In this document: one piece after another, positions 3,833 through 41,218 of the stretch
Numbering within the stretch: position 1 is the stretch's first letter
Layout: each line of letters begins with the position of its first letter
Source: Caldisericia bacterium
GTDB lineage: Bacteria; Caldisericota; Caldisericia; JAAYUI01
Direction: 5' to 3'
Assembly (NCBI GenBank): GCA_017992555.1
Contig: JAGOOK010000012.1
Span: 1 to 44,615 of the forward strand
Length of the DNA: 44,615 bases
Made by a program: the position numbers and the translations under genes
The notes under the pieces: generated by a model
Seen by the model: only the letters and a program-made list of their open reading frames with translations
Database searches by the model: none
Told to the model about the DNA's origin: nothing

Positions 3833-3834
3833 AC

Positions 3835-4383
3835 ATGGACACCAAAACATTGCAAGATCACATGGAGAAAACGATTGGTTCGCTTCAGCAAAATTTTGTC
3901 GGGCTGAGGGCCGGAAGGGTAACGCCTGCCATAGTGGCCAAAGTCATGGTTAATGCCTATGGCTCCGAACTTCCGCTTCCACAGGCTGGCAACATTGGCG
4001 TTCCAGATGGAAGAACCATGATTATCGAGCCGTGGGACAAATCCCTTATTAAAGAGATAGTGACCGCATTACAGAAGGCAAATCTGGGTGCAAACCCAAC
4101 ATCTGATGGCAATCTCATAAGGCTGCCATTCCCTCCACTTTCACAGGAAAGAAGGCAGGAGCTCGCCAAGATGGTCAAAAAATATGGCGAGGACGCCAAA
4201 GTGGCAATCCGCAACATAAGAAGGGATGCCATAGAACAGGTCAAAAAAGCAGAGAAGAACAAGGAAATCTCTGAGGACGAAAGGTTCAAGAGGGAAGAAG
4301 AAATCCAGAAAACCACTGATAAATACTCAAAAAAGGTGGACGAGCTGGTGGTCCAAAAGGAAAAGGAAATCCTGGAAAGTTGA
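3835..4383 (+). CDS. frr: Ribosome recycling factor
   Basis: RRF, 182 residues, splits post-termination ribosomes together with EF-G. The three-helix-bundle domain carries LRAGRVTPAIV near residue 25 and the C-terminal helix region with RNIRRDAIEQVKKAEK. The middle domain contains IIEPWDKSLIKEI and NLIRLPFPPLSQERRQEL, both diagnostic. The start follows GGAAGGGGGC, a strong Shine-Dalgarno inside the end of pyrH, and the gap is two bases. The stop TGA overlaps the TTG start of the next gene. Confidence 0.97.
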   Translation: MDTKTLQDHMEKTIGSLQQNFVGLRAGRVTPAIVAKVMVNAYGSELPLPQAGNIGVPDGRTMIIEPWDKSLIKEIVTALQKANLGANPTSDGNLIRLPFPPLSQERRQELAKMVKKYGEDAKVAIRNIRRDAIEQVKKAEKNKEISEDERFKREEEIQKTTDKYSKKVDELVVQKEKEILES

Positions 4384-8384: not shown

Positions 8385-9400
8385 GCAGAAGCGTCTTGGT
8401 TGGCAACGTCAGGATCGGTGGTGGTGCACCCATTGCTGTCCAGACGATGACAAAGACCGACACCAGGGACGCAAAAACAACAATCGAACAGATGTGGCGT
8501 GTATATGGGGCTGGCTGTGAAATAGTCAGGTGCGCCATTCCCGACATGGAAGCCGCAAAGGCCCTTGCCGAGATTGTAAAAGAAAGCCCCATCCCTGTTG
8601 TTGCGGACATCCATTTTGATTACAGGCTGGCGCTTGCATCTCTTGAAGCCGGTTGCCACAAGCTCAGGCTCAACCCTGGCAATATAAAGGACAAAGAAAA
8701 AATAAGGCTTGTTGCAAGAGAAGCCAAAGCCAGAAGCGTTCCCATAAGGGTCGGTGTCAATGCCGGCTCAATCAAACACACGGACAATGTGTCCAATGAA
8801 GTGGTTCAAATTGCATTGGAGGAGGTAAAAATACTTGAAGATGAGGATTTTAGAGACATCGTTGTATCTGTAAAAACATCCGACATAAAAACGACTTTTG
8901 AGGCAAACCGTCTTTTAAGAAAGGCGTGTGACTATCCGATACACATAGGTTTGACCGAGTCTGGCCCGTTAATACAGGGCCTAGTGAGGTCAAGCGCCGC
9001 ACTTTTGCCCATGCTTGAAGAAGGCATAGGGGACACGATAAGGGTCTCGCTGACTGAGGACCCGGAAGCAGAAGTGGAAGCGGCGTGGTCAATGCTTGAG
9101 ACTGTGGGCGTCAGGTCGTTTGGGCCAACAATAATATCCTGCCCCACCTGCGGAAGGACAAGGCAAAACCTGCGCGGGAAGCTGTCGGAGATCCGTATGG
9201 CACTAAAAGGGGTCAAAGGTAAAAAAATAGCTGTCATGGGCTGCGAGGTAAATGGGCCTGGTGAAGCCAAGGACGCTGATATGGGGATTGCCTTTGGAGC
9301 AACAAAATGTGTTGTTTTTAGAGGCGGCAACATGATTGGAACTTTTGACACCGACGAGGCCGTAAGGATATTGATAGAAATGGCCAAGGAGGATAATTGA
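8381..9400 (+). CDS. ispG: 4-hydroxy-3-methylbut-2-en-1-yl diphosphate synthase
   Basis: IspG/GcpE of 339 residues, the [4Fe-4S] enzyme that reductively opens the cyclic MEcPP ring in the MEP pathway, fed by ferredoxin or flavodoxin. The N-terminal TIM barrel starts with VGNVRIGGGAPIAVQTMTKTDT. The C-terminal iron-sulfur domain has SCPTCGR (about residues 253-259) and MGCEVNGPGEAKDADMGIA (from about residue 286), supplying three Cys ligands and the conserved Glu. It is the short bacterial form without the inserted domain of plants. The start overlaps the rseP stop. Confidence 0.96.
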   Translation: MSRSVLVGNVRIGGGAPIAVQTMTKTDTRDAKTTIEQMWRVYGAGCEIVRCAIPDMEAAKALAEIVKESPIPVVADIHFDYRLALASLEAGCHKLRLNPGNIKDKEKIRLVAREAKARSVPIRVGVNAGSIKHTDNVSNEVVQIALEEVKILEDEDFRDIVVSVKTSDIKTTFEANRLLRKACDYPIHIGLTESGPLIQGLVRSSAALLPMLEEGIGDTIRVSLTEDPEAEVEAAWSMLETVGVRSFGPTIISCPTCGRTRQNLRGKLSEIRMALKGVKGKKIAVMGCEVNGPGEAKDADMGIAFGATKCVVFRGGNMIGTFDTDEAVRILIEMAKEDN

Positions 9401-28113: not shown

Positions 28114-29627
28114 GAAAAAACTGGTGGGTCCTGCTCATTGGGCTTGTGGTTTTTACTGCTGTTTATGCAATCTATTTCCCCCAGAGCCAGAAACCGCTCA
28201 GGCTTTCAGTGGATGCCATCTGGAAAGCCAAATGGCCAGCAGAAGTCGTTCTTGCTTCGGCAAAACCTTTCATTGCAACCGAAAAGGCCGTTTATAAAGT
28301 TGACAGTGACGCTCTTGAAAGGATTGATTACCCTGTGCAGCCCGAACTCCCTCAAGGGTTGTCCTGGGGAAAACCGAATATCCTGTCCATGAGTGTTTAT
28401 AATGGCGAACCTGTTTTACAGCTCAAAACAGGATTCATAAAGCATTCAAAAGGCAAATGGGTGCCTTTTGAGCAGACAGAAGATGTGGGAATAAGTGATG
28501 GCTGGGAAATTGTAGACGGGACAGTAAAAATTGGCGGAGAATCAGGGATTGTTATAGGAAAGCCAGGCAGTGGCCATATTGAAAAAATTGAAAAGGAGAA
28601 AATATTTTTTCAGATCCAGGGCAAAAAGTTCGAGGTTGCAGATGACAGAAACAGCCAGAACAAGGTTTTCTCCCCACCCCTGAGTGGTGATGGTGAACTG
28701 AGGGGCGTTGTGGTTGGGAAAAATACTTTTATGCCCACAAAAGACGGCAGGATCTCCATAACAACCGATGGCAAGGAAACGGGCGTCATTGATCGCGCAA
28801 ATCTCGGGCTTGATATCGTATCGGCAAAGATTGCCTCTGACGGGAAAACAATTTATGTCATGACAAGGGCCATTTATGGGTCTAGCCCCTCTTTCTGGGT
28901 GCAGGCCTATGATGCAAAAGAGTTCAAATGGAAAGGCGAGCTGGTGGCGTCATCTGGATCAAAGCCAGTGTCCATAGGCTTCTGCTCCGGAATGATTGTC
29001 GTTCTTTTTGATGATGGCCTGCTTTCATTCTACAACAAAGAGGGTTTTTCGCTTTTCAGTGAAAAGGTTTGCGATTTCCCACTGGACATGGTTTCAGTTG
29101 GTGAAACCATATATATTCTCTCGCCAGATTCGCTGTTATCAATTGCCGTCACGCAAAAGAGCGCACAAAATCGGATATGGCCAAGAATGGTTGATTTGGG
29201 GGATGTTGCTGGAGAGGCATGCTTCAGAGTCGGCGTTGAAGTCAAAGATGCTCCAAATCTTGTCATAAAGGGCGATTTTGTAAAACTGGATTCAATCGAG
29301 AAAAAAGAAGGGTATTACGCAATCAATCTGGTTGCCAAGACAAAAGGTTTTATCTCATTTGAAGAATATGAGGCTGACATAATAATTGAATCTGGCATTC
29401 TCAGGGAAATTGTGCCAGTAAGAATGGTTGCATCACCCAGAACCACAAAACTTGAGGTGTTCGAGAATGTGGCAATCGATGTTATTGCTGGAAAATCTTA
29501 CAAGGCAGAGATTGAGGGCGAAACCCTGAAGCTCGACATGGAACTGCCAGAATCAGGCGAAATTATTTATGATCCTCTGACATCCAGTGCTTTTGTCCTT
29601 GATGTCAGGAGGGGTTTGAAGCTTTAA
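28110..29627 (+). CDS. Membrane-anchored extracytoplasmic protein of the ECF operon
   Basis: A 505-residue protein. ATG 28110 overlaps the upstream stop as ATGA. An uncleaved signal-anchor (NWWVLLIGLVVFTAVYAIYF, about residues 4-23) is followed by about 480 extracytoplasmic residues dominated by short beta strands. Recurrent phrases such as GKTIYVMTRAI, VQAYDAKEF, IVVLFDDGLLSFYN and ETIYILSPDSLLSIAV suggest a beta-propeller. A C-terminal beta domain starts near residue 370. No enzyme motif is seen. As the last gene of the sigma operon it is a plausible sensor or an effector of the envelope response. Its stop overlaps that of the convergent gene. Confidence 0.65.
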   Translation: MRKNWWVLLIGLVVFTAVYAIYFPQSQKPLRLSVDAIWKAKWPAEVVLASAKPFIATEKAVYKVDSDALERIDYPVQPELPQGLSWGKPNILSMSVYNGEPVLQLKTGFIKHSKGKWVPFEQTEDVGISDGWEIVDGTVKIGGESGIVIGKPGSGHIEKIEKEKIFFQIQGKKFEVADDRNSQNKVFSPPLSGDGELRGVVVGKNTFMPTKDGRISITTDGKETGVIDRANLGLDIVSAKIASDGKTIYVMTRAIYGSSPSFWVQAYDAKEFKWKGELVASSGSKPVSIGFCSGMIVVLFDDGLLSFYNKEGFSLFSEKVCDFPLDMVSVGETIYILSPDSLLSIAVTQKSAQNRIWPRMVDLGDVAGEACFRVGVEVKDAPNLVIKGDFVKLDSIEKKEGYYAINLVAKTKGFISFEEYEADIIIESGILREIVPVRMVASPRTTKLEVFENVAIDVIAGKSYKAEIEGETLKLDMELPESGEIIYDPLTSSAFVLDVRRGLKL

Positions 29628-30535
29628 ATTTCAAAGGTCATTTTTGGCCCAAGCACTGAGAGGACAGGCTTTTCGCACTTTATCAAAAAATTGAGCCATA
29701 TTTTTTCGCCAAGCGGAATGCCTATTTTTGGTGGAAGAGGGCCCCTCATTGGTATCTTTTTTCTGGACAACGTGCACTCCCATGGCAAACCCTCTATCTG
29801 TCCACACCTCATCACCCCGATGTCATCAACCTGGACCATCATGGAGTTGCCCTCCCTGTCTGCCCCGCAATATTCGCTGTAGACTGGCAATTTCAGCAAA
29901 TTGCACCACTTTTTGTTTTTGTCCAGCAACATCGCCTCGTAGACATCAATGAAGTAGTCGAACCTGTAAAAAGAGGGCAGGCCTTCAGATTCTGTTACTT
30001 TTGAGACGACAGTGCCATCCTCATAAAACCAGCACGTTTGCAAGACAGAAAACGAGTGGTGTGGAACAAAGAGCCCGCCAACGGCAAAGCCTTTTGAAAA
30101 TGGCATGACAAATGGGCCAAGCTTGCACCGTGACCTTGCCAGCATGTAATTTTGGGAGAGCATTCTGTGGTAGCCAAACATTGCCCCGGAGGAGTCAAGG
30201 TAAGCCTGTGTAACTTCAAGGCCTTCCTTCTGGCTCACCCTGACCCTCACCTTCCATCGTCCCAGCCTTTCCTGGTGGACTGTTGCCCACCTGCCTCCGT
30301 CATCATGCACCATGTTCCCTTTTTTGCCGCATTCCCTGTCATTACCCGAAGTGATGCTGTCAAAAAACCCTTCTGCACCACTTATTTTTTCCCCATGCAC
30401 CGGGTCTTTTGAGAGGCCCCTCCGCAAAACTGAAAGACAGTGTGAAGCTACCCTGCCATTCAGGACGTATTCAAACTCAAAGAGGTTTGAAAGTTTTTCC
30501 ATGTGGCAAATGATATGCATGGCATGTGACATCAT
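29624..30535 (-). CDS. Protein of unknown function
   Basis: About 303 residues from ATG 30535; TTG 30547 and ATG 30502 (MEKLSNLFEFEYVLNG) are alternative starts, none with a clear Shine-Dalgarno. I recognise no family. The sequence has no signal peptide or membrane segment, alternates beta-like strands with glycine and proline turns, contains several scattered cysteines without a CxxC motif, and ends LNFLIKCEKPVLSVLGPKMTFEI. A possible promoter (TTCGCA-N17-TATAAA on the minus strand, 30594-30566) lies upstream, so it need not belong to the hydrogenase operon whose last stop is about 90 bases away. The frame is long, and its convergent stop overlaps the neighbour's by a few bases, which supports a real gene. 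Confidence 0.55.
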   Translation of the reverse strand: MMSHAMHIICHMEKLSNLFEFEYVLNGRVASHCLSVLRRGLSKDPVHGEKISGAEGFFDSITSGNDRECGKKGNMVHDDGGRWATVHQERLGRWKVRVRVSQKEGLEVTQAYLDSSGAMFGYHRMLSQNYMLARSRCKLGPFVMPFSKGFAVGGLFVPHHSFSVLQTCWFYEDGTVVSKVTESEGLPSFYRFDYFIDVYEAMLLDKNKKWCNLLKLPVYSEYCGADREGNSMMVQVDDIGVMRCGQIEGLPWECTLSRKKIPMRGPLPPKIGIPLGEKIWLNFLIKCEKPVLSVLGPKMTFEI

Positions 30536-30626
30536 TTTGTCACACAAAAAGGATTTTTTGTCGGTTTTATAATCTTGCGGGTTTAATTTGCGAAATTATT
30601 TTTTTGTGGGATTTTAGCTGACAAAA

Positions 30627-31085
30627 TCAAGCCAGAAGATTTTCTCTTGCGGCTATTTCTGAAATGATTTTTTGAAGGGACGCTTCAATCTCTGGCGTCA
30701 TTGTGGCCGAAAATGTCAGTACTTCACTGACCTCTACCGCGTAGATTGTGAATCTGTCCGGTATCTTCAGCCCGTGATTTTTGCCAATTTCAAGCGCTGT
30801 TACAAAATTAACGTCGTGCAGGTTGCTTGCGTGCCGTGTTTCCGAAAAATCCTGGAGTGAAAAAACCATCAGCGTGCCTGATGGCACCTGGCCTGTCATG
30901 ATTGAATCGATGAGCACGGCCTCGTCAAAGCCCTGCACCATATCAAGAAGGGCAAGGCCACCGGAGTTTGCCTCCATGAAAGTGGCCCTGCCCTCATTTT
31001 TTGACCTTAAAGCCTCAAGGACCCTCAACCCTACTGCATCATCCGAGAGGATCGGGTTGCCGAGTCCTATGACAATTTTTGACAA
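30627..31085 (-). CDS. [NiFe]-hydrogenase maturation endopeptidase
   Basis: A 152-residue protease of the HyaD/HycI/FrcD family (M52), which removes the C-terminal tail of the hydrogenase large subunit after nickel insertion. Diagnostic features are GLGNPILSDDAVGLRVLE (residues 7-24, with the nickel-sensing acidic residue), the second acidic site VLIDSI, and the conserved His in SNLHDVNF. It starts directly after the stop of the large-subunit gene, whose product retains the tail to be cleaved, so it is its dedicated protease. It is the last gene of the hdr/mvh operon. Confidence 0.92.
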   Translation of the reverse strand: MSKIVIGLGNPILSDDAVGLRVLEALRSKNEGRATFMEANSGGLALLDMVQGFDEAVLIDSIMTGQVPSGTLMVFSLQDFSETRHASNLHDVNFVTALEIGKNHGLKIPDRFTIYAVEVSEVLTFSATMTPEIEASLQKIISEIAARENLLA

Positions 31086-32588
31086 TTATTTCCTCAGCGT
31101 TTGCGTGATTTCGCCGTCGCTGCCATGGACCCTGACTTCCAGTGGCATCTGGCCAGGGAGCGAGTGTGTGGCGCATGAGAAACATGGATCGTAGGCCCTG
31201 AAGGCCATTTCCACCATGTTGAGGATACCGTCGGAAATCATGCCGTCTTTTATGAGCCCTCTTGCGGCCTTTGCCGTGTCGATGCATATTGCGCCATGGT
31301 TGAAGGCAGTTGCAACGATCATGTTTACTTTTGTGACCATGGCGTTTTCGTCGGACTCGTAGTGGTGAATGAGTGTTCCCCTTGGCGCCTCAACGATCCC
31401 CATCCCCACCCTCTTGTTTGTGGTTGGTATGTTCCTGACTTTCGGGTCTACTATCTGGTTGTCGGAGAGCAATTCAACCAGCCTCTCGCAGGCATAGACC
31501 AGCTCGATGACCCTTGCCCAGTGGTTTGCAAGGCTGAAGTGCACCGGCGCGCCGCCCAGGGTCTCCATGAACCTCTGCCACTCTGCATTTGCCAGTGGTG
31601 TTGCCATTCCCTTCGATACGTTCAGCCTCGAAAGCGGAGCGACCCTTGTTAGCCCTGATTCCGGGCCATCTGTCAGGCCTTTCCATCCGACTTTTTTGAG
31701 ATATGGGAATTTGAGGTAGCTCCATGGCATTACCTGCTCTGACACTTCCTCCAGGTAGTTTTTGGCCTCAAATTTGGTGAATTCCTTGCCCTTTGGATCA
31801 ATAACCCTGACTTTTCCGTCGTAGAAATTTGTGTGGTTGTTTTCGTCCACAAGGCCCATGTGGTAGCTTTCGTGGTAATACAGGTCCTTGTTTGTGATGA
31901 TGTCGAGGTATGTCTTGTTGGAAAGAACGACTGATTCAAGTATTTTGACAGTTTTTTTGGCGAACTCCAGCAGTGTTTTTGCCTGTGATAGCATCTCGGT
32001 GCGATCTTCCTTGGAAATCGGCTTGCTGATCCCGCCCGGAAGCCCGAATACTGGATGGGTCGCCCTTCCACCGATTCTGGCCTGGATGTCCTGGGCCATG
32101 ACCCTTGCATGAAGGACCTCTGCACCAAGTTCTCTGCCAACGGCCTCAATCACGCCAACAACGTTTCTTTTTGATGCTGGTGCTCCAGGGCCGCGAACGA
32201 AATCTGGTGCGCCGAGTGCATAGAAATGGGAGATATGGGAATGTATATAATGCCCGCAGTATGCGGCCTCCCTGAGCATCTTGGCCGTTTTTGGCGGGTC
32301 GACATCAAACATCATGTCCAGGGCCTTTGATGATGCAAGGTGGTGCGCCCATGGGCATATTCCACAAAGCTGGGTCACTATGCGTGGCAGTTCTTCAACC
32401 GGCCTGCCCTTGCAAAACTCCTCGAAACCCCTTAGTTCCACGATCTGGAAGAAACACTCGTCAACATTGCCGAAGCTGTCGAGGAAGATCTCTATCTTTA
32501 CATGTCCGTCGAGCCTTGTTCCTGGGGAAATTGTTATCTGGTTGGTTTCGGCCCTGTGTTTTTCATCAAAGATGATTGGTTCTGCCAT
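31086..32588 (-). CDS. mvhA: [NiFe]-hydrogenase large subunit, MvhA type (group 3)
   Basis: A 500-residue catalytic subunit carrying the NiFe centre. ATG 32588 follows AGGAATAA and gives MAEPIIFDEKHRAET. The N-terminal cysteine pair is in LCGICPWAHH (about residues 62-71) and the C-terminal pair in DPCFSCATH. After the final His about 25 residues remain (starting SLPGQMPLEVRV), the peptide removed on maturation. Sequence type and gene neighbours place it with cytoplasmic F420-non-reducing hydrogenases of methanogens (Mvh), which feed H2-derived electrons to HdrA. No membrane anchor or Tat signal is present in this operon, consistent with a soluble complex. Confidence 0.93.
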   Translation of the reverse strand: MAEPIIFDEKHRAETNQITISPGTRLDGHVKIEIFLDSFGNVDECFFQIVELRGFEEFCKGRPVEELPRIVTQLCGICPWAHHLASSKALDMMFDVDPPKTAKMLREAAYCGHYIHSHISHFYALGAPDFVRGPGAPASKRNVVGVIEAVGRELGAEVLHARVMAQDIQARIGGRATHPVFGLPGGISKPISKEDRTEMLSQAKTLLEFAKKTVKILESVVLSNKTYLDIITNKDLYYHESYHMGLVDENNHTNFYDGKVRVIDPKGKEFTKFEAKNYLEEVSEQVMPWSYLKFPYLKKVGWKGLTDGPESGLTRVAPLSRLNVSKGMATPLANAEWQRFMETLGGAPVHFSLANHWARVIELVYACERLVELLSDNQIVDPKVRNIPTTNKRVGMGIVEAPRGTLIHHYESDENAMVTKVNMIVATAFNHGAICIDTAKAARGLIKDGMISDGILNMVEMAFRAYDPCFSCATHSLPGQMPLEVRVHGSDGEITQTLRK

Positions 32589-32592
32589 TTGC

Positions 32593-33612
32593 TTATTCCT
32601 CCGCGTCCTCAACGGCCTCGTTGATGATTGCATTTCCAAAAGTGTATCTGTAGAAAGTCCCCAGTGGGTCGGGAACCTGCGCAACGATCTTTTCCAGTTC
32701 GTCATCGGTCATGTCAAGCTCGTGGTCAGTCATGTCCAGTATTGATCCAAGAGCCGAAAGCATTGAAGCACCCTGGTCCAGGACAAGCCCGGTTGGGCCA
32801 TAGCACCCCCTGCATGGCATGTTGCCGATTTTTGTGCACTGGGCACCACAGCCGGCCCTTGTCGCGACACCAAGGCAGATTATACCCTGCTCGAGAAAAC
32901 ACTTTTCAGGATCAAGCTCGATTTCGTAAGGCCTGTTTATCTTCTTGATGTTGTATTTTTCAGGTTTTACCCTTGGGCACTCTTCGCAAAGGGTTTTTTC
33001 TGATGCGATTATTGCACCTTTTGGCGGGAGTGGCGTTCCTTTGGTAACGTAGCTGTGCACTGCCCCGACAAAGGTTTTTATGGTTGAGACGGCAGGCGGA
33101 CAACCCGGGAGATAGTAGTCAACATCAATGATTCTGTCCATCGGGACTATTTTTTGCTCTGCCTCTGGCAGCGTGAGCGTCCTCCCGAGGGGAGTTTTCC
33201 ACTTGTGTTGTGGCGTTACACCCTCTGGGTTGACTGTTGATGCTGTGTCTTTTCCGTAGACAGTTTGCCATATCTTGCCCATTCCGCCTTTTACGGAATT
33301 GGCAAGCGATGGTATTCCTCCGAATGCCGAACAGGCTCCAAAGGCCACCATCAGTTTTGATTTCTTCCTGAGCAGTTTTGCAAGGTGGACGTTTTCTTCG
33401 TCCCTCATGGAGCCATGCACCAGAGAAGCAGTGATATATCCGTCAGGCATCTTTTCGAGGTCTTCGTACTTGGTGTCGACGTAGGTTTGTGAGAACACTA
33501 TGTCGGCTATGTCGAAAAGGTCAAGCAGCATCCCGTCGATGTCGATTATGGCCATGTCGCAGCCATCGCATGTGGCGGCAGTGGCAATGGCAAGTCTAAT
33601 TTTTTCAGACAT
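32593..33612 (-). CDS. mvhG: [NiFe]-hydrogenase small subunit, MvhG type
   Basis: A 339-residue electron-transfer subunit. ATG 33612 follows AAGGAAG and gives MSEKIRLAIATAATCDGCD. The proximal-cluster ligands begin with TCDGCD (CxxC) and continue with GACSAFGG and LPGCPP. Downstream cysteines in LCEECPR, CFLEQGIICLG, GCGAQC and MPCRGCYG supply the medial and distal [4Fe-4S] clusters. The absence of a twin-arginine signal makes it cytoplasmic. The start overlaps the mvhD stop by eight bases. The C-terminus carries a short near-repeat (DMTDHELDMTDDELE). Confidence 0.92.
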   Translation of the reverse strand: MSEKIRLAIATAATCDGCDMAIIDIDGMLLDLFDIADIVFSQTYVDTKYEDLEKMPDGYITASLVHGSMRDEENVHLAKLLRKKSKLMVAFGACSAFGGIPSLANSVKGGMGKIWQTVYGKDTASTVNPEGVTPQHKWKTPLGRTLTLPEAEQKIVPMDRIIDVDYYLPGCPPAVSTIKTFVGAVHSYVTKGTPLPPKGAIIASEKTLCEECPRVKPEKYNIKKINRPYEIELDPEKCFLEQGIICLGVATRAGCGAQCTKIGNMPCRGCYGPTGLVLDQGASMLSALGSILDMTDHELDMTDDELEKIVAQVPDPLGTFYRYTFGNAIINEAVEDAEE

Positions 33613-34063
33613 GGGCCACTTCCTTTCTTTCATTCTCTTCCATGAGCTTGGTTCTTAGTGGTGACAGCCCAAGCTTGTCAATCTGGGTGGAGAAGTTTCT
33701 CATTGTGTCGGCAAATTTCTGGCCTTCAGACGCAGAAATCCATTCCAGGGCAAATCTTTTTGGGGATATGCCGATTTGCTTGAGCATCATCTCAAGGAGT
33801 TTTATCCTTCTTCTCTCCCTGTAGTTTCCGGATATGTAATGGCAATCTCCGGGATGGCACCCGGCCACTATCACGCCATCAGCACCTTTCGCAAAGGCCT
33901 TCAGGACGAGTTCTGGGTCGATTCTTGCGCTGCACATTGTGCGTATCAGCCTGAAATTCGTTGGCATTTGGAACCTTGATACACCTGCAAGGTCGGCACC
34001 GGCATAAGTGCACCAGTTGCATGAAAGAACGACAATCAGGGGTTTGTTTTTCTCTGCGCTCAC
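33605..34063 (-). CDS. mvhD: MvhD-type [2Fe-2S] subunit linking hydrogenase and HdrA
   Basis: A 152-residue protein of the MvhD/FlpD family, the wire between the hydrogenase (or formate dehydrogenase) and HdrA in methanogen bifurcating complexes. All expected cysteines are present: VLSCNWCTYAGADLAG (residues about 13-28), TMCSARI, and VAGCHPGDCHY. It lies between hdrA and mvhG, and its start overlaps the hdrA stop by four bases. This is the canonical copy; a divergent second copy lies at 37115. Confidence 0.93.
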   Translation of the reverse strand: MSAEKNKPLIVVLSCNWCTYAGADLAGVSRFQMPTNFRLIRTMCSARIDPELVLKAFAKGADGVIVAGCHPGDCHYISGNYRERRRIKLLEMMLKQIGISPKRFALEWISASEGQKFADTMRNFSTQIDKLGLSPLRTKLMEENERKEVAHV

Positions 34064-37000
34064 CTTACCGCCTCCTCCAGAACTGCATCAATCATGGATG
34101 CAAGCTGTTTTGTTGTGAAGCCGAGTTGCTCCATGGCTCCAGATGGGCAGGCCGCCGCACAGGCGCCACAGCCCTTGCACAGTGCCTCATCGACATTTGC
34201 AACCTGTTTCTCGCCAACATTCTTCAAATTTATTGCGCTGTATGGACACATTGGAAGGCATATCCTGCAGGCATCGCAGATGTCTTCGTTTACATTGGCA
34301 ATTGCTGCTTCGGAAAGGAGCTTGTCCTTTGATATTACAGTGAGCGCTCTTCCTGCGGCGGCACTTGCCTGGGCAAGTGTTTCATCGAGCATCCTTGGAT
34401 GGTAGGCCATTCCTGCAAGGTAAACGCCGTCTGTTGCGAAGTCTACCGGGCGGAGCTTGACGTGGGCCTCGAGGAAGAAACCCTCGTCATTGATTGGTAC
34501 TTTGAGAATTGTTCCGATGTCCTTGTTGTCGGGGTTTGGCTCAACGCCAGATGACAGGATCAGAAGGTCTGCCGGTATTTCCAGTGTTGTTCTAAGCACT
34601 GGATCAAATATTCTCGCGAAGAGTTTTCCGTCATGCTTGATGACCTCAGGCTTGCGCTCTGGATCCCACCTGACAAAGATTACACCTTTTTCTCTTGCCT
34701 TGTTGTAATAGTGTTCCCTGAAACCATAAGTGCGTACATCCCTGTATAGGACATAAACTTCTGCGTTCGGGTTCTCTTCTTTTGCAAGATTGGCGTTTGC
34801 TACTGCTGTTGAACAGCATATGCGGGAGCAGTATGGGTGTTCGTCATTCCTGGATCCGACGCATTGTATCATTACGATGGATTTTGCATCCTTGATGCCA
34901 TTTCCCTCTATGAGCTTTTTCTCGAATTCGAGCTGGGTGAGGACCCTTGGGTCTTCGCCATAGAAGTATTCTTTTGGTTTGTGCTGGTTGGCGCCCGTTG
35001 CAACAACTATTGCACCTACGCTTATCTCTTCTTTTTCTCCTGTGGCCGTGTTTTTGAGAATTGGCTTGAAACTGCCAACAGAGCCGGACAGATCGCCAAG
35101 AACAGTGTTCGTTTTGATAGTTATGAGTTTGTTTCTGGTGGCCTCGAAAATGAGTGATTTGAGATATGCCTGCATGTCGCCAACTTCGTTGGTGTATCTG
35201 GCGTATTTGAGGTTTCCACCCAACTCGCCTGTTTTTTCGATGAGTGTGACGGGATAGCCGTTTCTGGCTATGTCCAGAGCGGCATTCATTCCTGCCGCAC
35301 CGCCACCAATCACAAGGGCGGACTGGGTGACCGGCAATGATCTTCTGGTTAGTGGCTGGAGCATTCTAGCTTTTGCAACCGCGACCCTTACGAGGTCTCT
35401 AGCCTTTTCTGTGGCGTTGACCGGGTCACCCTGGTGTATCCATGAGCAGTGCTCCCTGATGTTTGCCATTTCGACCAGGTATGGGTTTAGCCCTGATTCC
35501 CTAAGGGTTTCCTGGAAAAGCGGTTCGTGGGTCCTTGGTGTGCAGGATGCCACAACAACCCTATTCAGGTTGTTGTCTTTTATCGATTTGGAAATCAGTT
35601 TCTGGGTGTCCTGGGAGCACGTGTAGAGATTGTGCTCTGCAACAACAACATTTGGCAGTGTCTTTGCATAGTCCATCACATCAACAACATCGACCGTATT
35701 GGCTATGTTGATGCCGCAATGGCAGATAAAAACTCCAATTCTTGGCTCTTCGCCAAGAACATCTGTTTGTGGAGGATACTCTTTCTCCACTAGGCAGGTT
35801 GCCCTTCCTGCGGCACAATCCACGCCGGCTTTGGCCGAAGCTCCAATTGCCTGAGCCACTGTCTCTGGAATGTCTTTGGGGCCAGAAAAAGCGCCGGCCA
35901 CATAGATTCCGCTCCTGCTTGTCGAAAGCGGGTTTGTGTAGTCAGTTTTGGCAAAACCGTCTTCGGACAGTTCCAGTCCGAGGTTGTCTGCAAGTTTTTT
36001 TACTGTCTCCGAGGTCTGGAGTCCAACTGATAGCACGACAAGGTCGAAGGTTTCGGTTTTTTCAGTGCCATCTTCAGACTCGTACCTGAGCGTGAGATCA
36101 TGTGTTACAGGATCTTCCATTACTTCCGGGATACGGGAGCGTATGTAGCGGATCCCGTATTCGTTTTGTGCCCTATTGTAGTATTGCTCGAACCCTTTGC
36201 CTACAGCCCTCATGTCCATGATAAAGATTGTCTGTTCAATGTCCGGGACGTGCTCCCTTGTCATGATTGCTTCTTTGGTGGCATACATGCAGCACACGGC
36301 TGAACAGTAGGGTTTTCCGGCTTTGGGGTCCCTGGAACCAATGCATTGGAGCCAGGCGATCTTTTTCGGGATTTTGCCATCAGATGGCCTTAGAACGTGG
36401 CCCTGATATGGACCTGAGGCATTCAGGACGCGCTCAAACTGTATCGAGCTGATGACGTTTGGATACCTGCCATAGCCATATTCAGATTTCAGTTCTGGCC
36501 TGAATTCTTCAAAGCCAGGGGCCAGTATGACTGCACCGACATCAAGCGTTCTCTCTTCTTGCTTGTCGGAGTATTTTACGGCTTTGGCAAGGCAGACATT
36601 TTCGCACATCTGGCAACCTATGCATGCATTTCTGTCGATTGTTGCCACGAGCGGTATGGCCTGCGGGAACTCGATGAAGATGGCCTTTTTGCCAGCCAAC
36701 CCCTCGTTGAATCCCGATATGCAGTGGACCGGGCAATACTGCATGCATGTTCCGCAGCCGGTGCAGAGTTTTGGGTCAACGTATCTTGGATAAACATTTA
36801 CGTTGGCCTTGAAATTGCCAGGGCGCCCTGTAACGTGGGTCACCTCGGCATTGGTGATTATTTCAATGTTCTGGTTCCTGCCGCATGAAACCAATTTTGG
36901 AGAGAGGATGCACATCGAGCAGTCGTTGGTCGGGAATGTCTTGTCCAGCTGGGCCATTACGCCGCCAATTGCCGGCGAGCTTTCCACCATGTAGACCTTG

Positions 37001-37104
37001 AAACCTGCTTCAACAAGGTCAAGGGATGTCTGGATTCCTCCGATGCCACCACCCACAACGAGCACCGAACCAAATGTTTTGTCAGTTTTTCCTGTTGTTG
37101 TCAT
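34060..37104 (-). CDS. hdrA: Double-length HdrA-type bifurcating flavoprotein
   Basis: A 1014-residue protein, about 1.5 times a usual HdrA, made of two HdrA-like halves. First half: FAD site VVGGGIGGIQTSLDL (about 16-30), Cys motif NDCSMCILSPKLVSC (about 60-74), an inserted ferredoxin with CTGCGTCMQYC and CIGCQMCENVC (about 113-170), and CSAVCC (about 268). Second half: the HdrA N-terminal-type domain GVFICHCGINIA (about 456), a second FAD site VIGGGAAGMNAAL (about 596), CSRICC (about 757), and a C-terminal ferredoxin with CDACRICLPMC and CKGCGACAAAC (about 941-987). HdrA splits electron pairs between a disulfide and ferredoxin. The second half has no NDCSMC motif, so the two flavins probably differ in role. 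Confidence 0.9.
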   Translation of the reverse strand: MTTTGKTDKTFGSVLVVGGGIGGIQTSLDLVEAGFKVYMVESSPAIGGVMAQLDKTFPTNDCSMCILSPKLVSCGRNQNIEIITNAEVTHVTGRPGNFKANVNVYPRYVDPKLCTGCGTCMQYCPVHCISGFNEGLAGKKAIFIEFPQAIPLVATIDRNACIGCQMCENVCLAKAVKYSDKQEERTLDVGAVILAPGFEEFRPELKSEYGYGRYPNVISSIQFERVLNASGPYQGHVLRPSDGKIPKKIAWLQCIGSRDPKAGKPYCSAVCCMYATKEAIMTREHVPDIEQTIFIMDMRAVGKGFEQYYNRAQNEYGIRYIRSRIPEVMEDPVTHDLTLRYESEDGTEKTETFDLVVLSVGLQTSETVKKLADNLGLELSEDGFAKTDYTNPLSTSRSGIYVAGAFSGPKDIPETVAQAIGASAKAGVDCAAGRATCLVEKEYPPQTDVLGEEPRIGVFICHCGINIANTVDVVDVMDYAKTLPNVVVAEHNLYTCSQDTQKLISKSIKDNNLNRVVVASCTPRTHEPLFQETLRESGLNPYLVEMANIREHCSWIHQGDPVNATEKARDLVRVAVAKARMLQPLTRRSLPVTQSALVIGGGAAGMNAALDIARNGYPVTLIEKTGELGGNLKYARYTNEVGDMQAYLKSLIFEATRNKLITIKTNTVLGDLSGSVGSFKPILKNTATGEKEEISVGAIVVATGANQHKPKEYFYGEDPRVLTQLEFEKKLIEGNGIKDAKSIVMIQCVGSRNDEHPYCSRICCSTAVANANLAKEENPNAEVYVLYRDVRTYGFREHYYNKAREKGVIFVRWDPERKPEVIKHDGKLFARIFDPVLRTTLEIPADLLILSSGVEPNPDNKDIGTILKVPINDEGFFLEAHVKLRPVDFATDGVYLAGMAYHPRMLDETLAQASAAAGRALTVISKDKLLSEAAIANVNEDICDACRICLPMCPYSAINLKNVGEKQVANVDEALCKGCGACAAACPSGAMEQLGFTTKQLASMIDAVLEEAVR

Positions 37105-37114
37105 GGTGCTCCTT

Positions 37115-37900
37115 TCAAGCCTGGATGTACTGGAAATATCTGCCAGACAACCCTGCCTCGTTCACCATTCCGGAATGCTCAAGCTCCTGTATGAGATTGA
37201 ACACTTCGGGTTCCGGAAAATTGGACTGTTTTGCGATTTCCGGTATTGTCATCGGTATCTTGTCAATTTTGCCAAGCACGGCATAGAGGCGATATTTGTG
37301 CTTGATCTTGTCAATGATCATCTCGTCAAATTCTTGCTGGGATATCTTGAGATCGTAGGTATTGCCTATTTCGGTGAGCTGGTTTTCCTTGCCCACCATC
37401 CAGCCTATTTCAGGGTCCTGGGTGACCTTTCTTGCCATCATGAGCTTTTCCCTGACATCTTCTGGAGTAAAGTTTTCAGTTTCTGCCTGGCCAAGCGGCC
37501 CAAGTTTCAGGATTTTTTTCCTGAACTGCTCGAGCGGGTCGCTGATGAGCTGGAGGAAACCAAGCGAAATTTCGACCCTTCCTGGGTCAAACCCTGCGAA
37601 TTTGAGAAGATTTTTTGCGAAGTGCATCCTTCTTTTTGCTATGAAATTTCCATCCCTGTAGTTGCACTCGTATGAGTCGCACCCGGCCACAAAAACGCCG
37701 TCTGCGCCCATCTCCATGGCTTCAAGGACGTTGTCTGCCATGATCCTTCCCGAGCAGAGCACCCTTAATATTCTTGGTACGCCCCTGTAAGGTGCTCTTA
37801 TTGGACCGACAAGGTCTCCTGAGGCTGATGAGCACCAGTTACAGACAAAAGCGACAATCTTTGGGTTGAATATTCCTCTTTTTGCTGGTTGTTGTTCCAT
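37115..37900 (-). CDS. Second MvhD-like iron-sulfur subunit with C-terminal extension
   Basis: A 261-residue protein. The N-terminal 130 residues follow MvhD: FVCNWCSSASGDLVG (about 17-31), VLCSGRI, and VAGCDSYECNYRDGN, where the usual HPGDC reads DSYEC but the cysteines are kept. A helical linker (about 135-205) leads to a C-terminal region (MTIPEIAKQSNFPEPEVFNLIQELEHSG) with the pattern of a winged-helix fold. It lies directly upstream of hdrA. It may connect HdrA to the polyferredoxin/flavoprotein module just as MvhD connects it to the hydrogenase; this pairing is an inference from gene order. Confidence 0.82.
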   Translation of the reverse strand: MEQQPAKRGIFNPKIVAFVCNWCSSASGDLVGPIRAPYRGVPRILRVLCSGRIMADNVLEAMEMGADGVFVAGCDSYECNYRDGNFIAKRRMHFAKNLLKFAGFDPGRVEISLGFLQLISDPLEQFRKKILKLGPLGQAETENFTPEDVREKLMMARKVTQDPEIGWMVGKENQLTEIGNTYDLKISQQEFDEMIIDKIKHKYRLYAVLGKIDKIPMTIPEIAKQSNFPEPEVFNLIQELEHSGMVNEAGLSGRYFQYIQA

Positions 37901-37908
37901 TTGTCCCC

Positions 37909-38574
37909 CTAGTATGACCTGATGACTTCTTTTATCTGGTCAGAGAGCTTGTCTGTGGTGTGGTAGTTCATGAATATTGCACCGTAAGGACAGCTTGTTG
38001 AGCAGAGCGAGCATCCCCTGCAAAGCTCGGAGTTTGTTCTGGCTTTCAGGCCCCTCTCTGTCTGCACCATGGTGATGGCGCCAAACGGGCACACCTCGAC
38101 GCAAAGTCCGCAACCAATACAAAGATTGTCATCCCTCATCTCGACCTCTTCGTAGACAAGCGCATCTTTTGGGCAGGCGTCCACGCAGGCCGGTATTGGA
38201 ACATCAAGGCACCTGTCACATTTGAGCACCTTGGTGTAGTCCTCATTGGGAAGCACTCCGCCGTATGGGCAGTTCATGACGCACATCCAGCATGCGATAC
38301 ATTTGTCGTAATCAACGTTGACCATTCCTGTTTCCGGGTCAAAGTGCATTGCACCGGTCATGCAGGCTGTTACACATGGAGCATCGTCACAGTGCCTGCA
38401 CCTTAACGGGTAGGGTCTGGTTCCGGCAAGCTCCACATGGACCCTCTGTTTTGAGAGTTGTTTGTCTATTTCGTGGGGTATTTCGGAATCTTCGGGAGTG
38501 TGTTTTTTGAGGCAAGCCCTTTCGCAAAGCCTGCAACCAACACATTTTTCGAAGTCCACAAGGATTGTTTTCAT
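37909..38574 (-). CDS. Polyferredoxin, CooF/HycB-like, with six [4Fe-4S] motifs
   Basis: A 221-residue electron carrier. The first four motifs are arranged as in CooF/HycB/DmsB-type ferredoxins: CVGCRLCERAC, CRHCDDAPCVTAC, CIACWMCVMNC and CDRCLDVPIPACVDAC. Two further motifs, CIGCGLCVEVC and CRGCSLCSTSC, form an added bacterial-ferredoxin module in the last 85 residues. All six are complete. It is encoded directly after an NAD(P)/FAD oxidoreductase. CooF plus such an oxidoreductase (FNOR) is a known pair in carbon-monoxide-dehydrogenase clusters, but no cooS is present here. Confidence 0.88.
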   Translation of the reverse strand: MKTILVDFEKCVGCRLCERACLKKHTPEDSEIPHEIDKQLSKQRVHVELAGTRPYPLRCRHCDDAPCVTACMTGAMHFDPETGMVNVDYDKCIACWMCVMNCPYGGVLPNEDYTKVLKCDRCLDVPIPACVDACPKDALVYEEVEMRDDNLCIGCGLCVEVCPFGAITMVQTERGLKARTNSELCRGCSLCSTSCPYGAIFMNYHTTDKLSDQIKEVIRSY

Positions 38575-38583
38575 TGTGACCTC

Positions 38584-39813
38584 CTAGAAAACCAGCAAGG
38601 CAAGCTTGTCTTCGAGGACATCTTCCTTGTGGCCTTTCACGGAAACCTGTTTTTTGATGAGACCATTGAGGGTCCCTATTGTTGTTATCTTGCCAACAAA
38701 CAGGGCGCCTATGACCTTGTCATCCATCAGGATGACCTTTCTGTACAGTCCCTCCCTGATGTTCTGGTTTATCATTACCTCAAACTGGCCGCCTGTTGGT
38801 TTTATGTTGCCTATGGAGATGCAGGAGAGGCCGTAGAACTGGAATGAATTCATCCAGAACCAACCCCTGTATTCCCTTGGTATTCCAACCATGTTGAAAC
38901 CGGCGATGCGGCCCTGTTCGGAGGCTCTTGGCCAGACGAGGTTTGTTGTTGACCTTCCAAATGATTCCTCAAAGGTCTCTGTGCAGTCGCCTGCGGCCCA
39001 GACGTTTGGAATGTTTGTCCTCATGTGGTTGTCAACGATTATGCCCTCGCCAGTCTTGATCTCGGTGTTTTTGAGGAACTTGAGGTCAGGTTTGACGCCT
39101 TTTGCGAATATCAGTATGTCGCACTCGTGCTCATCACCCGACTCGAGGACGACACCTTCAACTTTGTCCTTGCCGAGGACTTCACTTATCGATGTGTTCA
39201 GGATGACTCTAATTCCCTTGCGGTCCAGCCTCCTTTTTACAATGGAGGCCGCCGTTTCGTCGAGCAGCTGTGACATGATCTGGTTTGAGGCTATAACAAC
39301 TGTTACATCGAGCCCAGCATCGACGAGACCTTGTGCAGCCTTAAGGCCAACAAGGCCACCCCCGATTACAAAGGCTCTTCTGGCATCTTTGGTTTTTTCT
39401 TTTATTTTCTTGGCTGTGTCGAGGTCGGTGAATGTGTAGATTCCATCAAGGTCTTTTCCCGGCATGTCTGGAACCTGGGATTTTCCTCCTGTAGCTATCA
39501 GGAGCTTGTCGTAAGAGATTTCCTTGCCATCCTTGAGTATTAGCCTGTTTGAGATTGGCTCGAATCTGACAACTGCATTTCCAAGCTCAAGCTTGATGTC
39601 TCTTTTGTCATACCAGTCCTGCTCGTGGTAGAACATTTTTTCAAGGGTCGTTTCGCCACCGATGTAGTATGAAATGAGGGGCCTTGAATAGCTGAGGAAA
39701 TTCTCTTCGCTAATCATACAAATTGAGCCATCCCTGTCTTCAGACCTTATTGTGTCAGCGGCCCTCAAACCCGCTATGCCATTACCAACTATCACATATT
39801 TGTAGTGTTCCAT
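38584..39813 (-). CDS. NAD(P)/FAD-dependent oxidoreductase (FNOR / NADH:rubredoxin-reductase-like)
   Basis: A 409-residue flavoprotein of the pyridine-nucleotide disulfide oxidoreductase fold without the redox disulfide. FAD binding: VIVGNGIAGLRAADTI (about residues 7-22) and the late VWAAGDCTE (about 272). NAD(P) binding: VIGGGLVGLKAAQGL (about 148-162), where strand 2 ends VVIASNQ, lacking a clear Glu or Arg marker, so NAD versus NADP is undecided. The C-terminal 100 residues resemble the reductase domain of NROR/NirB-type enzymes. The ATG shares one base with the hdrB stop (TGATG). It likely adds NAD(P) as an electron donor or acceptor to the Hdr complex. Confidence 0.87.
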   Translation of the reverse strand: MEHYKYVIVGNGIAGLRAADTIRSEDRDGSICMISEENFLSYSRPLISYYIGGETTLEKMFYHEQDWYDKRDIKLELGNAVVRFEPISNRLILKDGKEISYDKLLIATGGKSQVPDMPGKDLDGIYTFTDLDTAKKIKEKTKDARRAFVIGGGLVGLKAAQGLVDAGLDVTVVIASNQIMSQLLDETAASIVKRRLDRKGIRVILNTSISEVLGKDKVEGVVLESGDEHECDILIFAKGVKPDLKFLKNTEIKTGEGIIVDNHMRTNIPNVWAAGDCTETFEESFGRSTTNLVWPRASEQGRIAGFNMVGIPREYRGWFWMNSFQFYGLSCISIGNIKPTGGQFEVMINQNIREGLYRKVILMDDKVIGALFVGKITTIGTLNGLIKKQVSVKGHKEDVLEDKLALLVF

Positions 39814-40709
39814 CAGGCCTCCTTGACTCCAACAGCCAGCCTGTCCAGTATTGTTTTTGGTTTGACCCTGTTCAGGTTGAAGCCGAGATCCTTTTCATCA
39901 ATTCCTATCGCCAGTCCGATGACTTGCGGGAGGTAAAGGACGGGCAGATCAATCGGTTCACCTATCTCTTTCTCGGCCTTTTTCTGGTTCCCCTCGTACT
40001 GGATGTTGCAGAATGGGCAGTGGAGAACCATTGCGTCGACATTTCCTCTGGCCTTGATTCTATGCAATTTTCCTGATGCGACCTTGATTGAAGTGGTCTC
40101 CCTGATGCCAAGGATTCCACCACCACAGCATTCATTTCTGTTCATTATGATGATGCTGTTTGCGCCTGTTGCTTTTATCAGTGCATCAAGAGTTGTTGGT
40201 GCTTCGGGGTTGTCAAAGTGCTTGAATGTTTCGCTTGGCTTGAGGTAGTGGCAACCTGCATGGCTTACAAAATTTATTCCGGTGAGGGGTCTTTTTACTG
40301 CTTGCGAGATTTTTTCCGGGCCAATCTTTTCATGGAGTAACCTTGTGAAGTGCCATACCTTTGTGTCGCCAGTGTATGGTTTTGAGCCTGATTTCTCAAG
40401 CGTTGCGTTGATCCTTCTCCTAAGTTCTTTATCGTGTGCAAGCTCGACGGAGGCCTCGGAGAGAGTTGAGTTGCAGGCTGAGCAGAGAGTTACAAGTTCA
40501 AGACCCATATCCGAGGCTTTTGCCAGGGTGTTTGCAGACATTGCAAGGCAGGCATCCCTGTTGACATTGCGCATTGGCATTCCGCAGCAGGATGGTTCGT
40601 TGATGTCAACAAATTCTATTCCAAAGGCTTCGGCCACTTTCCTTGCGGAAAGTTCGTAGTTGAGCGCCCTGGCGGGAATTGTACAACCTGTGAAGAGGGC
40701 ATATTTCAT
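39813..40709 (-). CDS. hdrB: Heterodisulfide reductase subunit B (HdrB)
   Basis: A 298-residue protein with two CCG domains, each binding part of a non-cubane [4Fe-4S] cluster at which disulfide is reduced. N-terminal: FTGCTIPARA, EPSCCGMPM and TLCSACNSTL. C-terminal: SHAGCHYLKPS, NECCGGGILG and LHCPFCNIQYEGNQ. All ligand cysteines are present, so a catalytically competent HdrB is expected. Bacteria lack CoM-CoB disulfide, so the physiological substrate is unknown. The start overlaps the hdrC stop as ATGA. Confidence 0.93.
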   Translation of the reverse strand: MKYALFTGCTIPARALNYELSARKVAEAFGIEFVDINEPSCCGMPMRNVNRDACLAMSANTLAKASDMGLELVTLCSACNSTLSEASVELAHDKELRRRINATLEKSGSKPYTGDTKVWHFTRLLHEKIGPEKISQAVKRPLTGINFVSHAGCHYLKPSETFKHFDNPEAPTTLDALIKATGANSIIIMNRNECCGGGILGIRETTSIKVASGKLHRIKARGNVDAMVLHCPFCNIQYEGNQKKAEKEIGEPIDLPVLYLPQVIGLAIGIDEKDLGFNLNRVKPKTILDRLAVGVKEA

Positions 40710-41218
40710 TGTGCAGCCCCTTTCAGTTCTTCCTTCTCCAGGATCGCATTTACGGTTTCTTTTGAATTGGACACTGGTGGAAGCCCTATTTTTTCACGTT
40801 TCTTGTTGTCAAAATCCGTGATTTCGTACATTCTGCCAAAATTTGAAAGAACATCAATCTGTGCGTTGTATGAAGGGTGCATGTGGCCTTCTCTTGTTGC
40901 CATGTTTTTGAGTGCGAACATGAGGTCTGTGATACCAACATCTTGGGGGCACCTCTCCTGGCAGGTGTAGCAGTAGGTGCAAAGCCAGATTGCCTCAGAT
41001 TTCAAGACCTCTTCCTTCATACCAAGAATGACCATTCTGATTATTTTTCTTGGATTGTAATCTTCGTCAACTGCCCTTATCGGGCACGAAGCAGTGCATG
41101 TTCCACATTGGAAACAACTCTTGATTCTTTCACCGCCTACCTCTTTTGCGACCTGATATTTGAAACTGGGATCAAGCTTGGAGATTGGTAGGGTTGGTCT
41201 GTCAGCATTTTGACTCAC
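40706..41218 (-). CDS. hdrC: Heterodisulfide reductase subunit C (HdrC)
   Basis: A 170-residue iron-sulfur protein transferring electrons from HdrA to HdrB. Two [4Fe-4S] motifs are clear: CFQCGTCTASCP (about residues 35-46) and CTYCYTCQERCP (about 80-91), spaced as in HdrC. There is no membrane segment, so this is the soluble HdrABC form rather than HdrDE. The GTG start follows AAGGGGG at seven bases. It is the first gene of the operon, behind a putative promoter at 41310-41283 and a leader of about 58 bases. Confidence 0.93.
   Translation of the reverse strand: MSQNADRPTLPISKLDPSFKYQVAKEVGGERIKSCFQCGTCTASCPIRAVDEDYNPRKIIRMVILGMKEEVLKSEAIWLCTYCYTCQERCPQDVGITDLMFALKNMATREGHMHPSYNAQIDVLSNFGRMYEITDFDNKKREKIGLPPVSNSKETVNAILEKEELKGAAQ

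Follow-up and report, generated by a model that had tools for sequence, protein, structure and literature searches.

A chimeric polyferredoxin and a fused HdrA in an Hdr/Mvh operon of Caldisericota: a candidate electron-bifurcating complex with two donor/acceptor arms

In methanogens of the genus Methanothermobacter, the MvhD paralogue ElpC joins an F420H2 module to the heterodisulfide reductase (Hdr) HdrABC, and the mobile donor arm is described as comprising the N- and C-terminal domains of HdrA too (PMC12350162). Fused HdrA chains have been termed type II (PMC12054007), and the complementary halves of the HdrAs of ANME (anaerobic methanotrophic archaea) and Moorella, with the N-domain half first, are presented as a built-in heterodimer (PMC9012536). 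For type III HdrA encoded with mvhADG in Bathyarchaeota, a coupling of NADH, H2 and heterodisulfide has been proposed, so the idea of an H2-NADH-Hdr enzyme is not new (PMC12054007). Here we describe ten tightly packed minus-strand genes at positions 30627-41218 of the window, by which we mean the whole 44,615-nucleotide stretch of Caldisericota DNA analyzed. Their order is hdrC-hdrB-fnor-polyFd-mvhD2-hdrA-mvhD1-mvhG-mvhA-protease, where fnor encodes an FAD/NAD(P) oxidoreductase (FNOR) and polyFd a polyferredoxin. Judged by domain content, a chimeric polyferredoxin and a second MvhD appear to join a CooF-FNOR-type module to a fused-HdrA hydrogenase complex, an architecture that appears to be new; no described precedent for it, and no paper on Caldisericales with electron bifurcation, was found in the open-licence PMC literature, where one paper (PMC6368606) mentions Caldisericia together with heterodisulfide reductase.

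An earlier note on this DNA had read the locus as an Hdr/Mvh electron-bifurcation operon to which a CooF-FNOR-type NAD(P) module is added. That gene content is supported, and the operon is conserved as a unit; the interpretation as a whole is supported in part, as the note overlooked the double HdrA, the chimeric nature of the polyferredoxin, the winged-helix class of MvhD and the loss of a lysine from the second half of HdrA.

Domain composition of the polyferredoxin, HdrA and second MvhD

The polyferredoxin (37909-38574, minus strand, 221 aa) carries 24 cysteines, consistent with the six [4Fe-4S] clusters counted earlier, and alignments to hidden Markov models (HMMs) and PDB entries divide it into two parts. 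The front (residues 1-145) is a four-cluster ferredoxin of the CooF/AorA type (8c0z_C, 68.4 bits). The back (residues 146-219; 37918-38139, minus strand) is a homologue of HdrA's C-terminal ferredoxin domain right through the tail past the last cluster, and aligns with residues 578-651 of 5odc_A. Against a 77-position HMM of that HdrA domain built without Caldisericota, residues 148-218 scored 71.8 bits over model positions 6-76, and the front of the same protein reached at most 21.4. Amongst the other open reading frames (ORFs) below 450 aa in the comparison loci, four scored higher (in L115, L095, L089 and L065) and the remainder gave 20-55 bits. Each of the four lies directly upstream of an MvhD gene, and three start at the edge of their locus and are probably the ends of HdrA genes. 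Whereas the window polyferredoxin has the HdrA-type back, it was absent from all ten standalone CooFs aligned (ten of the 12 loci returned, L163 and L167 being left out); a mixed alignment of CooFs with HdrA-tail fragments misaligned the CooFs and was dropped. At the level of sequence homology, these comparisons establish the polyferredoxin as a chimera of a CooF/AorA-like front and an HdrA C-terminal ferredoxin domain.

FNOR (38584-39813, minus strand, 409 aa) is encoded next to the polyferredoxin. FAD and NAD(P) Rossmann folds were recovered in it by Pfam (Pyr_redox_2, 202.7 bits), and it falls in the PadH/AorC/NirB class. The nearest NCBIfam model is PadH (NF045765, 303 bits, under its cut-off of 475), and the nearest solved relative by sequence is AorC (8c0z_E, 173.7 bits), from an NAD-dependent tungsten aldehyde oxidoreductase. 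CoA-disulfide reductase models scored up to 191 bits, but disulfide reductase activity for FNOR itself was rejected on the absence of the usual redox cysteine from its sequence. The pair fits a CooF-FNOR module, that is, a four-cluster ferredoxin beside an FAD/NAD(P) reductase without the redox cysteine. AorC is described as reducing NAD+ with electrons from the ferredoxin AorA (PMC10413684), and the CooF-FNOR-type reductase carries the label COG1251, a number taken from PMC11338639.

Alignment to 8rvu_a, together with Pfam and NCBIfam, identified the 1014-aa HdrA (34060-37104, minus strand) as a fused double HdrA of type II. Three blocks of the chain match the solved protein: residues 13-384 correspond to 153-524, residues 452-614 to 10-172, and residues 874-1012 to 522-656. 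Half 1 (residues 1-430; 35815-37104), delimited by the first block and by column counts, has an FAD domain with the pair E224/K277, an inserted ferredoxin domain and, at C65, the Cys197 position (by numbering offset to 5odc); it has neither the N-domain nor the C-terminal ferredoxin. Half 2 (residues 452-1014; 34063-35751), covered by the other two blocks, has the N-domain, an FAD domain with E728 and the C-terminal ferredoxin, and lacks the inserted ferredoxin and an equivalent of Cys197. Two thioredoxin-reductase/FAD domains with a complementary N-domain and Cys197 are the features of type II; the two unequal halves differ from the symmetric homodimer type of about 650 aa. Type III was also rejected, as 1014 residues hold no GltD-sized insert and the three blocks cover both halves.

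Across 93 fused HdrAs (92 ORFs drawn from 84 loci together with the window protein, near-duplicates kept), the cluster cysteines hardly vary: C65 in 92 of the 93, C461, C463, C496 and C521 in all 93, and the weakest, C979, in 76. The half-1 Glu and Lys are each present in 92/93. The half-2 Lys is replaced by Ala (A769 in the window) in all eight Caldisericota rows, from five genomes, and is retained in 73 of the 85 others. Equivalents of E356/K409, a pair linked to bifurcation but reported in 75% of type II HdrAs and hence not strictly defining (PMC12054007), are accordingly complete in half 1 and broken in half 2 by Ala769.

The second MvhD-like protein of the earlier note, MvhD2 (37115-37900, minus strand, 261 aa; FlpD 104.6 bits), does have an MvhD core, but it also carries a C-terminal extension that had not been recognized. 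In an AlphaFold 2 model with a predicted local distance difference test score (pLDDT) of 85.6, the core superposed on 5odh_D with Z 17.0 over 132 residues at 2.4 A. The extension (residues 202-261; 37118-37297) is predicted to be a winged-helix domain: a fold search matched it to ArsR/MarR-type and other winged helices over 58-61 residues at 1.2-1.7 A, with Z of 7.3-8.0, middling scores given the tool's own caution that Z under 8 may reflect only a common arrangement, and TrmB gave 19.6 bits, under its cut-off.

MvhDs with this extension are widespread, 24 having been found outside Caldisericota in 96 loci. In 21 of the 24, an HdrA-type C-terminal ferredoxin domain is found either at the end of the preceding gene or fused to the MvhD itself; the exceptions are L058, where HdrB precedes the MvhD, and two short pieces without a usable neighbour, L099 and L105. 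Restricting the set to winged-helix MvhDs directly upstream of a double HdrA (one matching both halves; L058, where the start of the HdrA ORF overlaps the MvhD, was included by hand), 16/17 outside Caldisericota are preceded by or fused to the domain, L058 being the one exception. Its carriers are an HdrA or HdrA fragment in ten cases, a GltD-type flavoprotein in two, a stand-alone domain in one and MvhD fusions in three. Four MvhDs without the extension precede a double HdrA, and the upstream domain was seen in none of the three that have a neighbour. In Caldisericota, the polyferredoxin occupies the slot before the winged-helix MvhD.

The informative cases are the last six. In L064, L067 and L078, from Archaeoglobi, the MvhD begins with a fused HdrA C-terminal ferredoxin domain and lies directly upstream of a fused HdrA, and L089 has a stand-alone domain of 91 aa. 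In Bathyarchaeota (L055, 8516-10249; L057, 4081-5442), a GltD-type NADPH flavoprotein with a terminal HdrA-type ferredoxin domain stands directly before the winged-helix MvhD. These flavoproteins score 509 and 320 bits with PRK12771 (cut-off 516) and 370 and 216 bits with TIGR01316 (cut-off 472), and match HdrA only over their last 80 residues, so they are not HdrAs; the short L057 copy may be damaged. Downstream follow a fused HdrA, MvhD, HdrCB, MvhG and MvhA, with an additional MvhD-HdrA pair between them in L057. From these gene orders, two lineages appear to have used different NAD(P)H-type flavoproteins to fill a single position in Hdr operons that carry hydrogenase genes.

Conservation and remaining gene content of the operon

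All five family genomes, representing two genera (G000, the genome of the window; G039, G040 and G041; and G042), keep the ten-gene order that the earlier note had proposed to look for elsewhere, and chance grouping is thereby ruled out. Nowhere in these five was the polyferredoxin/flavoprotein pair located elsewhere. Of the comparison loci, L050, L051 and L052 duplicate the contigs of L034, L036 and L035, respectively, so seven loci amount to four genomes. Protein identity to the window is 94-100% for the congeners G039, G040 and G041 and 51-84% for G042, from the other genus. Between the window and G039, the single within-genus pair compared, the ratio of nonsynonymous to synonymous substitution rates was 0.015-0.090 across the ten genes, indicating purifying selection, with the minimum in the polyferredoxin. 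Against G042, divergence at synonymous sites has reached saturation or come close to it (dS of 1.9-2.3 in five genes; in the other five it could not be computed), and the gene order is still kept. The flanks of G042 differ by eye; the 307-aa gene just downstream of the operon is 27% identical (BLAST, one flank pair) to an ORF one gene farther out in L037.

Other families of the phylum have Hdr operons without this gene set, several with three FlxABC-sized ORFs by HdrA and MvhD. A full-length match to the polyferredoxin was found in 5/54 genomes of the phylum, all in the window's family, which also served as the positive control. None was found in 1,557 genomes outside the phylum, a search that mostly scored 7-12 candidates per genome and could miss a diverged chimera. 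That total combines 299 genomes of one large phylum (E 1e-30 or better, 10 candidates per genome) with sets of 395, 301, 243, 300 and 19 from five other phyla (E 1e-46 or better); every candidate was scored in the set of 19, and the tool cautions that empty answers without a known positive show little. In the 299 genomes, 73 matched the polyferredoxin. Among the matches listed, ten pass residue 152, the rest stop at 140-152 and none spans the protein; the longest, 1-200, crosses three in-frame TGA codons.

FNOR and polyferredoxin together beside Hdr were likewise seen in 0/77 non-Caldisericota loci, many of which end at contig edges. A distant flavoprotein ORF (23-26%) is present in three of the 77 (L067, L078 and L103), on the strand opposite to HdrA in L067 and L078, and a ferredoxin-type ORF with its best match to the polyferredoxin occurs in 17; only L078 has both. 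In 31 whole genomes, corresponding to 31 of the 77 loci, the top match of MvhD2 was 144 bits, as compared with 407 bits, for a different query, in the second Caldisericota genus. In a midpoint-rooted FastTree phylogeny of 90 fused HdrAs (three duplicates dropped), the Caldisericota grouped with 16 archaeal sequences from 12 loci (support 0.82), a placement that fits with an archaeal origin by transfer. The archaeal loci L065 and L072 share with the window the order winged-helix MvhD, HdrA, MvhD, MvhG, MvhA, as do L055 and L057 with HdrCB interposed.

All ten genes were present at the positions noted earlier, on the minus strand, and Pfam and NCBIfam agreed with the family name given to each. 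This support is at the family level: the best-matching NCBIfam equivalog models among those shown fell under their cut-offs (e.g., VhuA, 392.6 bits against 800), as distant relatives would be expected to do. Adjacent genes overlap by 1-11 nt or are separated by 0-10 nt, with starts of MvhG near 33615 and of MvhA near 32585 after correction of the longest-ORF starts. All six subunits of HdrABC-MvhADG are co-encoded with intact metal-site motifs. HdrC (40706-41218, minus strand, as are all genes here; 170 aa), the first gene of the operon, has two [4Fe-4S] motifs (CxxCxxCxxxC at 35 and 80; TIGR03290, 133 bits, curated cut-off 160). HdrB (39813-40709, 298 aa) has two CCG cysteine-rich domains (PF02754), and its alignment with 5odc_B (204.9 bits) covers the full length, with both CCG motifs intact and all ten cysteines in register. 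MvhD1 (33605-34063) has 152 aa (FlpD, 179.4 bits). The [NiFe]-hydrogenase small subunit MvhG (32593-33615, 340 aa) matches PF01058 and VhuG (200 bits, cut-off 450). The large subunit MvhA (31086-32585), which is group-3c-like (PF00374; the VhuA model cited above), shows CGICxxxH, DPCxxCxxH and a 25-residue C-terminal extension. A maturation protease of the HycI type (30627-31085, 152 aa; PF01750; TIGR00072, 86.9 bits, above cut-off) completes the operon.

Just downstream lies a gene for a 307-aa protein without a Pfam match (29624-30547, minus strand). A PADLOC search of two flanking ORFs gave no match, and Pfam assigned ten other ORFs of the window mainly to housekeeping genes. A promoter and terminator scan returned 14 and 15 sites, as compared with 10.1 and 14.1 in shuffled sequences, and was not used.

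That CooF and FNOR pair in clusters of carbon monoxide dehydrogenase (CODH), as the earlier note held, was borne out by L166, where CODH (TIGR01702, 630 bits), CooF (48% to the polyferredoxin) and FNOR (36%) are adjacent. The absence of cooS from the operon was confirmed as well, and a search with PF03063 found no CODH. It gave one hit each in four of the five family genomes (three open frames of 552-556 aa and one contig-end fragment) and no hit in the window's own metagenome-assembled genome (1.5 Mb, 69.7% complete; the operon contig is C28). The only hit classified, from G041, is a hybrid-cluster protein (Hcp), a hydroxylamine reductase (775.7 bits, cut-off 367), and not a CODH. Membership of a CODH (CooS) cluster was accordingly rejected.

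A proposed two-arm complex and its alternatives

With a confidence just above even, we propose from domain content and gene order that the ten genes specify a single soluble complex for electron bifurcation or confurcation, with the fused HdrA acting as a heterodimer that has two donor/acceptor arms. In the first arm, H2 electrons would enter via MvhAG-MvhD1 and the N- and C-terminal domains of half 2, serving the half-1 flavin with its Glu/Lys pair and ferredoxin exit. The second arm would consist of FNOR, the polyferredoxin and MvhD2. Its position on HdrA has neither an N-domain nor a C-terminal ferredoxin, and the back of the polyferredoxin would supply in trans the ferredoxin domain missing from half 1, so that NAD(P)(H) electrons could exchange with the half-2 FAD. 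This flavin, having lost the bifurcation Lys, would probably do no more than relay electrons. Overall, H2 at middle potential would be coupled to ferredoxin at low potential and, at high potential, to NAD(P) and/or an HdrB-bound (di)thiol, perhaps in a HydABC-like manner. The potentials quoted for HydABC are about -280 mV for NADH, -414 mV for H2 and about -500 mV for ferredoxin (PMC9304861), values at which H2/ferredoxin/NAD(P) coupling should be feasible in either direction. In a methanogenic digester, the likely direction would be from NAD(P)H and reduced ferredoxin to H2.

A disulfide-like acceptor for HdrB is plausible given that both cysteine motifs are intact, and HdrB may contribute a dithiol couple or carry one. 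It is possible, though doubtful, that the complex is an Hdr-based counterpart of HydABC, with an asymmetric HdrA, two MvhD-linked arms, a non-bifurcating second flavin and a ferredoxin domain in trans; HdrBC would then conduct electrons internally or offer an additional outlet to a dithiol, and the Bathyarchaeota would share the layout with a GltD-type flavoprotein.

Several observations weigh against the two-arm complex. The AlphaFold model of the polyferredoxin, whose docking on HdrA is putative, was poor (pLDDT 56) and was not used. In MvhD2 (residues ~109-122; 37534-37576, minus strand), the 'WVSASEG'-like stretch of most aligned MvhDs is replaced in the window's family, which suggests a changed docking surface, and the docking of MvhD2 may differ. 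Ten of the 16 slot neighbours are HdrAs or their fragments, which normally end in that domain, leaving six independent cases, and L058 breaks the rule altogether. The half-2 Lys is also missing in 12/85 other HdrAs, and its loss therefore does not single out operons of this type. If HdrB uses a disulfide, as it may, the high-potential partner could be other than NAD(P). At a position that bears on NAD preference, following strand two of the NAD fold, AorC carries Glu and FNOR carries Ile, so the nucleotide may be either NAD or NADP. Finally, a polyferredoxin need not serve HdrA in this way: MvhB is described as able to bind the inserted domain of HdrA instead (PMC12350162).

This last point leads to an unlikely alternative, in which the polyferredoxin sits on the inserted ferredoxin domain of HdrA, as MvhB/FmdF do, and passes low-potential electrons through FNOR to NAD(P)+, with HdrB reducing a disulfide as in methanogens. 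MvhB is indeed the top PDB match of the polyferredoxin back by total bits, although the best single-domain match among the four printed alignments is the HdrA C-terminal domain (51.5 bits versus 35.3 for MvhB). Such a route would moreover waste the bifurcation by delivering its low-potential electrons to NAD(P)+, and MvhD2 would be left unexplained.

A connection through expression only, where an Hdr-Mvh complex and a separate soluble ferredoxin:NAD(P) oxidoreductase of FNOR and polyferredoxin share an operon for supply and are linked by free ferredoxin, seems improbable. CooF-FNOR pairs accompany the unrelated enzyme CODH too, but here the pair stands between HdrB and MvhD2 inside the operon in 5/5 genomes, and its polyferredoxin has the HdrA-type domain that the ten aligned standalone CooFs lack. 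We give equally little weight to HdrBC and the FNOR arm serving another organic substrate or protein partner as main acceptor, in place of a disulfide or NAD(P): HdrBCA-MvhD does partner MetVF in the acetogens Sporomusa and Moorella, and according to the same account no dithiol substrate was demonstrated for HdrBC of the Sporomusa methylene-tetrahydrofolate reductase, dihydrolipoate and glutathione being without effect (PMC9430772), but the operon contains no further catalytic gene and all ten motif cysteines of HdrB are kept.

The genome of the window also has a group-3b-like [NiFe] hydrogenase (ShyA/HydA-type, 254-258 bits, under the cut-offs). It also has a Nuo-like complex I cluster (L190; G000:C10:78000-96000) with no nuoEFG among the ORFs listed. 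A further cluster (L049, G000:C17:1-11898, at 121-6508; partly also L048, G042:C14, at 4394-8754) encodes a Rieske protein, two cytochromes b, an MvhD/FlxD-like protein and FlxC/B/A-like proteins. One cytochrome b of L049 ends in a ferredoxin domain of the HdrA type (54 bits with the HdrA model), and in L049 a Flx NAD(P)H module is apparently tied to a quinone-type cytochrome b in place of HdrABC. Because of these three systems, the operon need not be the sole route for H2 or NAD(P)H.

If the two-arm complex is real, it would be a natural Hdr complex in which the way HdrA serves two donors could be tested, the arms being co-encoded, each with its own MvhD. It would also give a concrete route by which uncultured digester Caldisericota dispose of NAD(P)H electrons as H2. 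A practical rule would follow as well, namely that an HdrA-type C-terminal ferredoxin domain outside HdrA, beside a winged-helix MvhD, can be read as the sign of an added electron module.

Comparison with known systems

With HdrABC-MvhADG of methanogens (5ODC/5ODH), the operon shares the six subunit families, the cysteine ligands, the protease-type extension of the large subunit and the entry of H2 via MvhD. It differs in its fused HdrA, with one set of N-terminal, inserted and C-terminal domains, in the extra MvhD, polyferredoxin and FNOR, and in its bacterial host. Type II HdrA, ANME HdrA3/4 and Moorella HdrA, as described, are alike in having two FAD domains per chain with complementary Cys197 and N-domain (PMC12054007, PMC9012536). 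The half order of ANME HdrA3/4 is the opposite (PMC9012536), the window HdrA having the Cys197 half first and the N-domain half second. Unlike other fused HdrAs, the window protein has lost the half-2 Lys and is tied to MvhADG and FNOR, not to FdhAB-like or MetFV proteins.

On the NAD(P) side, AorABC of Aromatoleum (8C0Z), PadHI and CooF-FNOR resemble the operon in combining a four-cluster ferredoxin with an FAD subunit. In FlxABCD-HdrABC, an NADH module is linked to Hdr via an MvhD-like protein. Judging from L049, the Flx-like flavoprotein has a different fold (FAD_binding_6/NAD_binding_1), and that system has no hydrogenase, whereas the window uses FNOR. Flx and GltD were both rejected as the NAD site, with no FlxABC among the ten genes and no GltD by Pfam, NCBIfam or the HdrA alignment.

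Closer in layout are L055 and L057, which combine an NADPH-type flavoprotein with an HdrA-type end, a winged-helix MvhD, a fused HdrA, HdrCB and MvhGA, and type III HdrA is akin to them (PMC12054007). Their flavoprotein is of the GltD class, and type III is described with a GltD domain inside HdrA (PMC12054007), whereas the window has a PadH/AorC-class FNOR on a chimeric polyferredoxin. Elp-Hdr of Methanothermobacter (8RVU; PMC12350162) resembles the arrangement proposed here in that a paralogue of MvhD attaches an alternative module for nucleotide oxidation to HdrA. Elp uses F420H2 and is reported to replace Mvh (PMC12350162), whereas the window operon encodes both arms.

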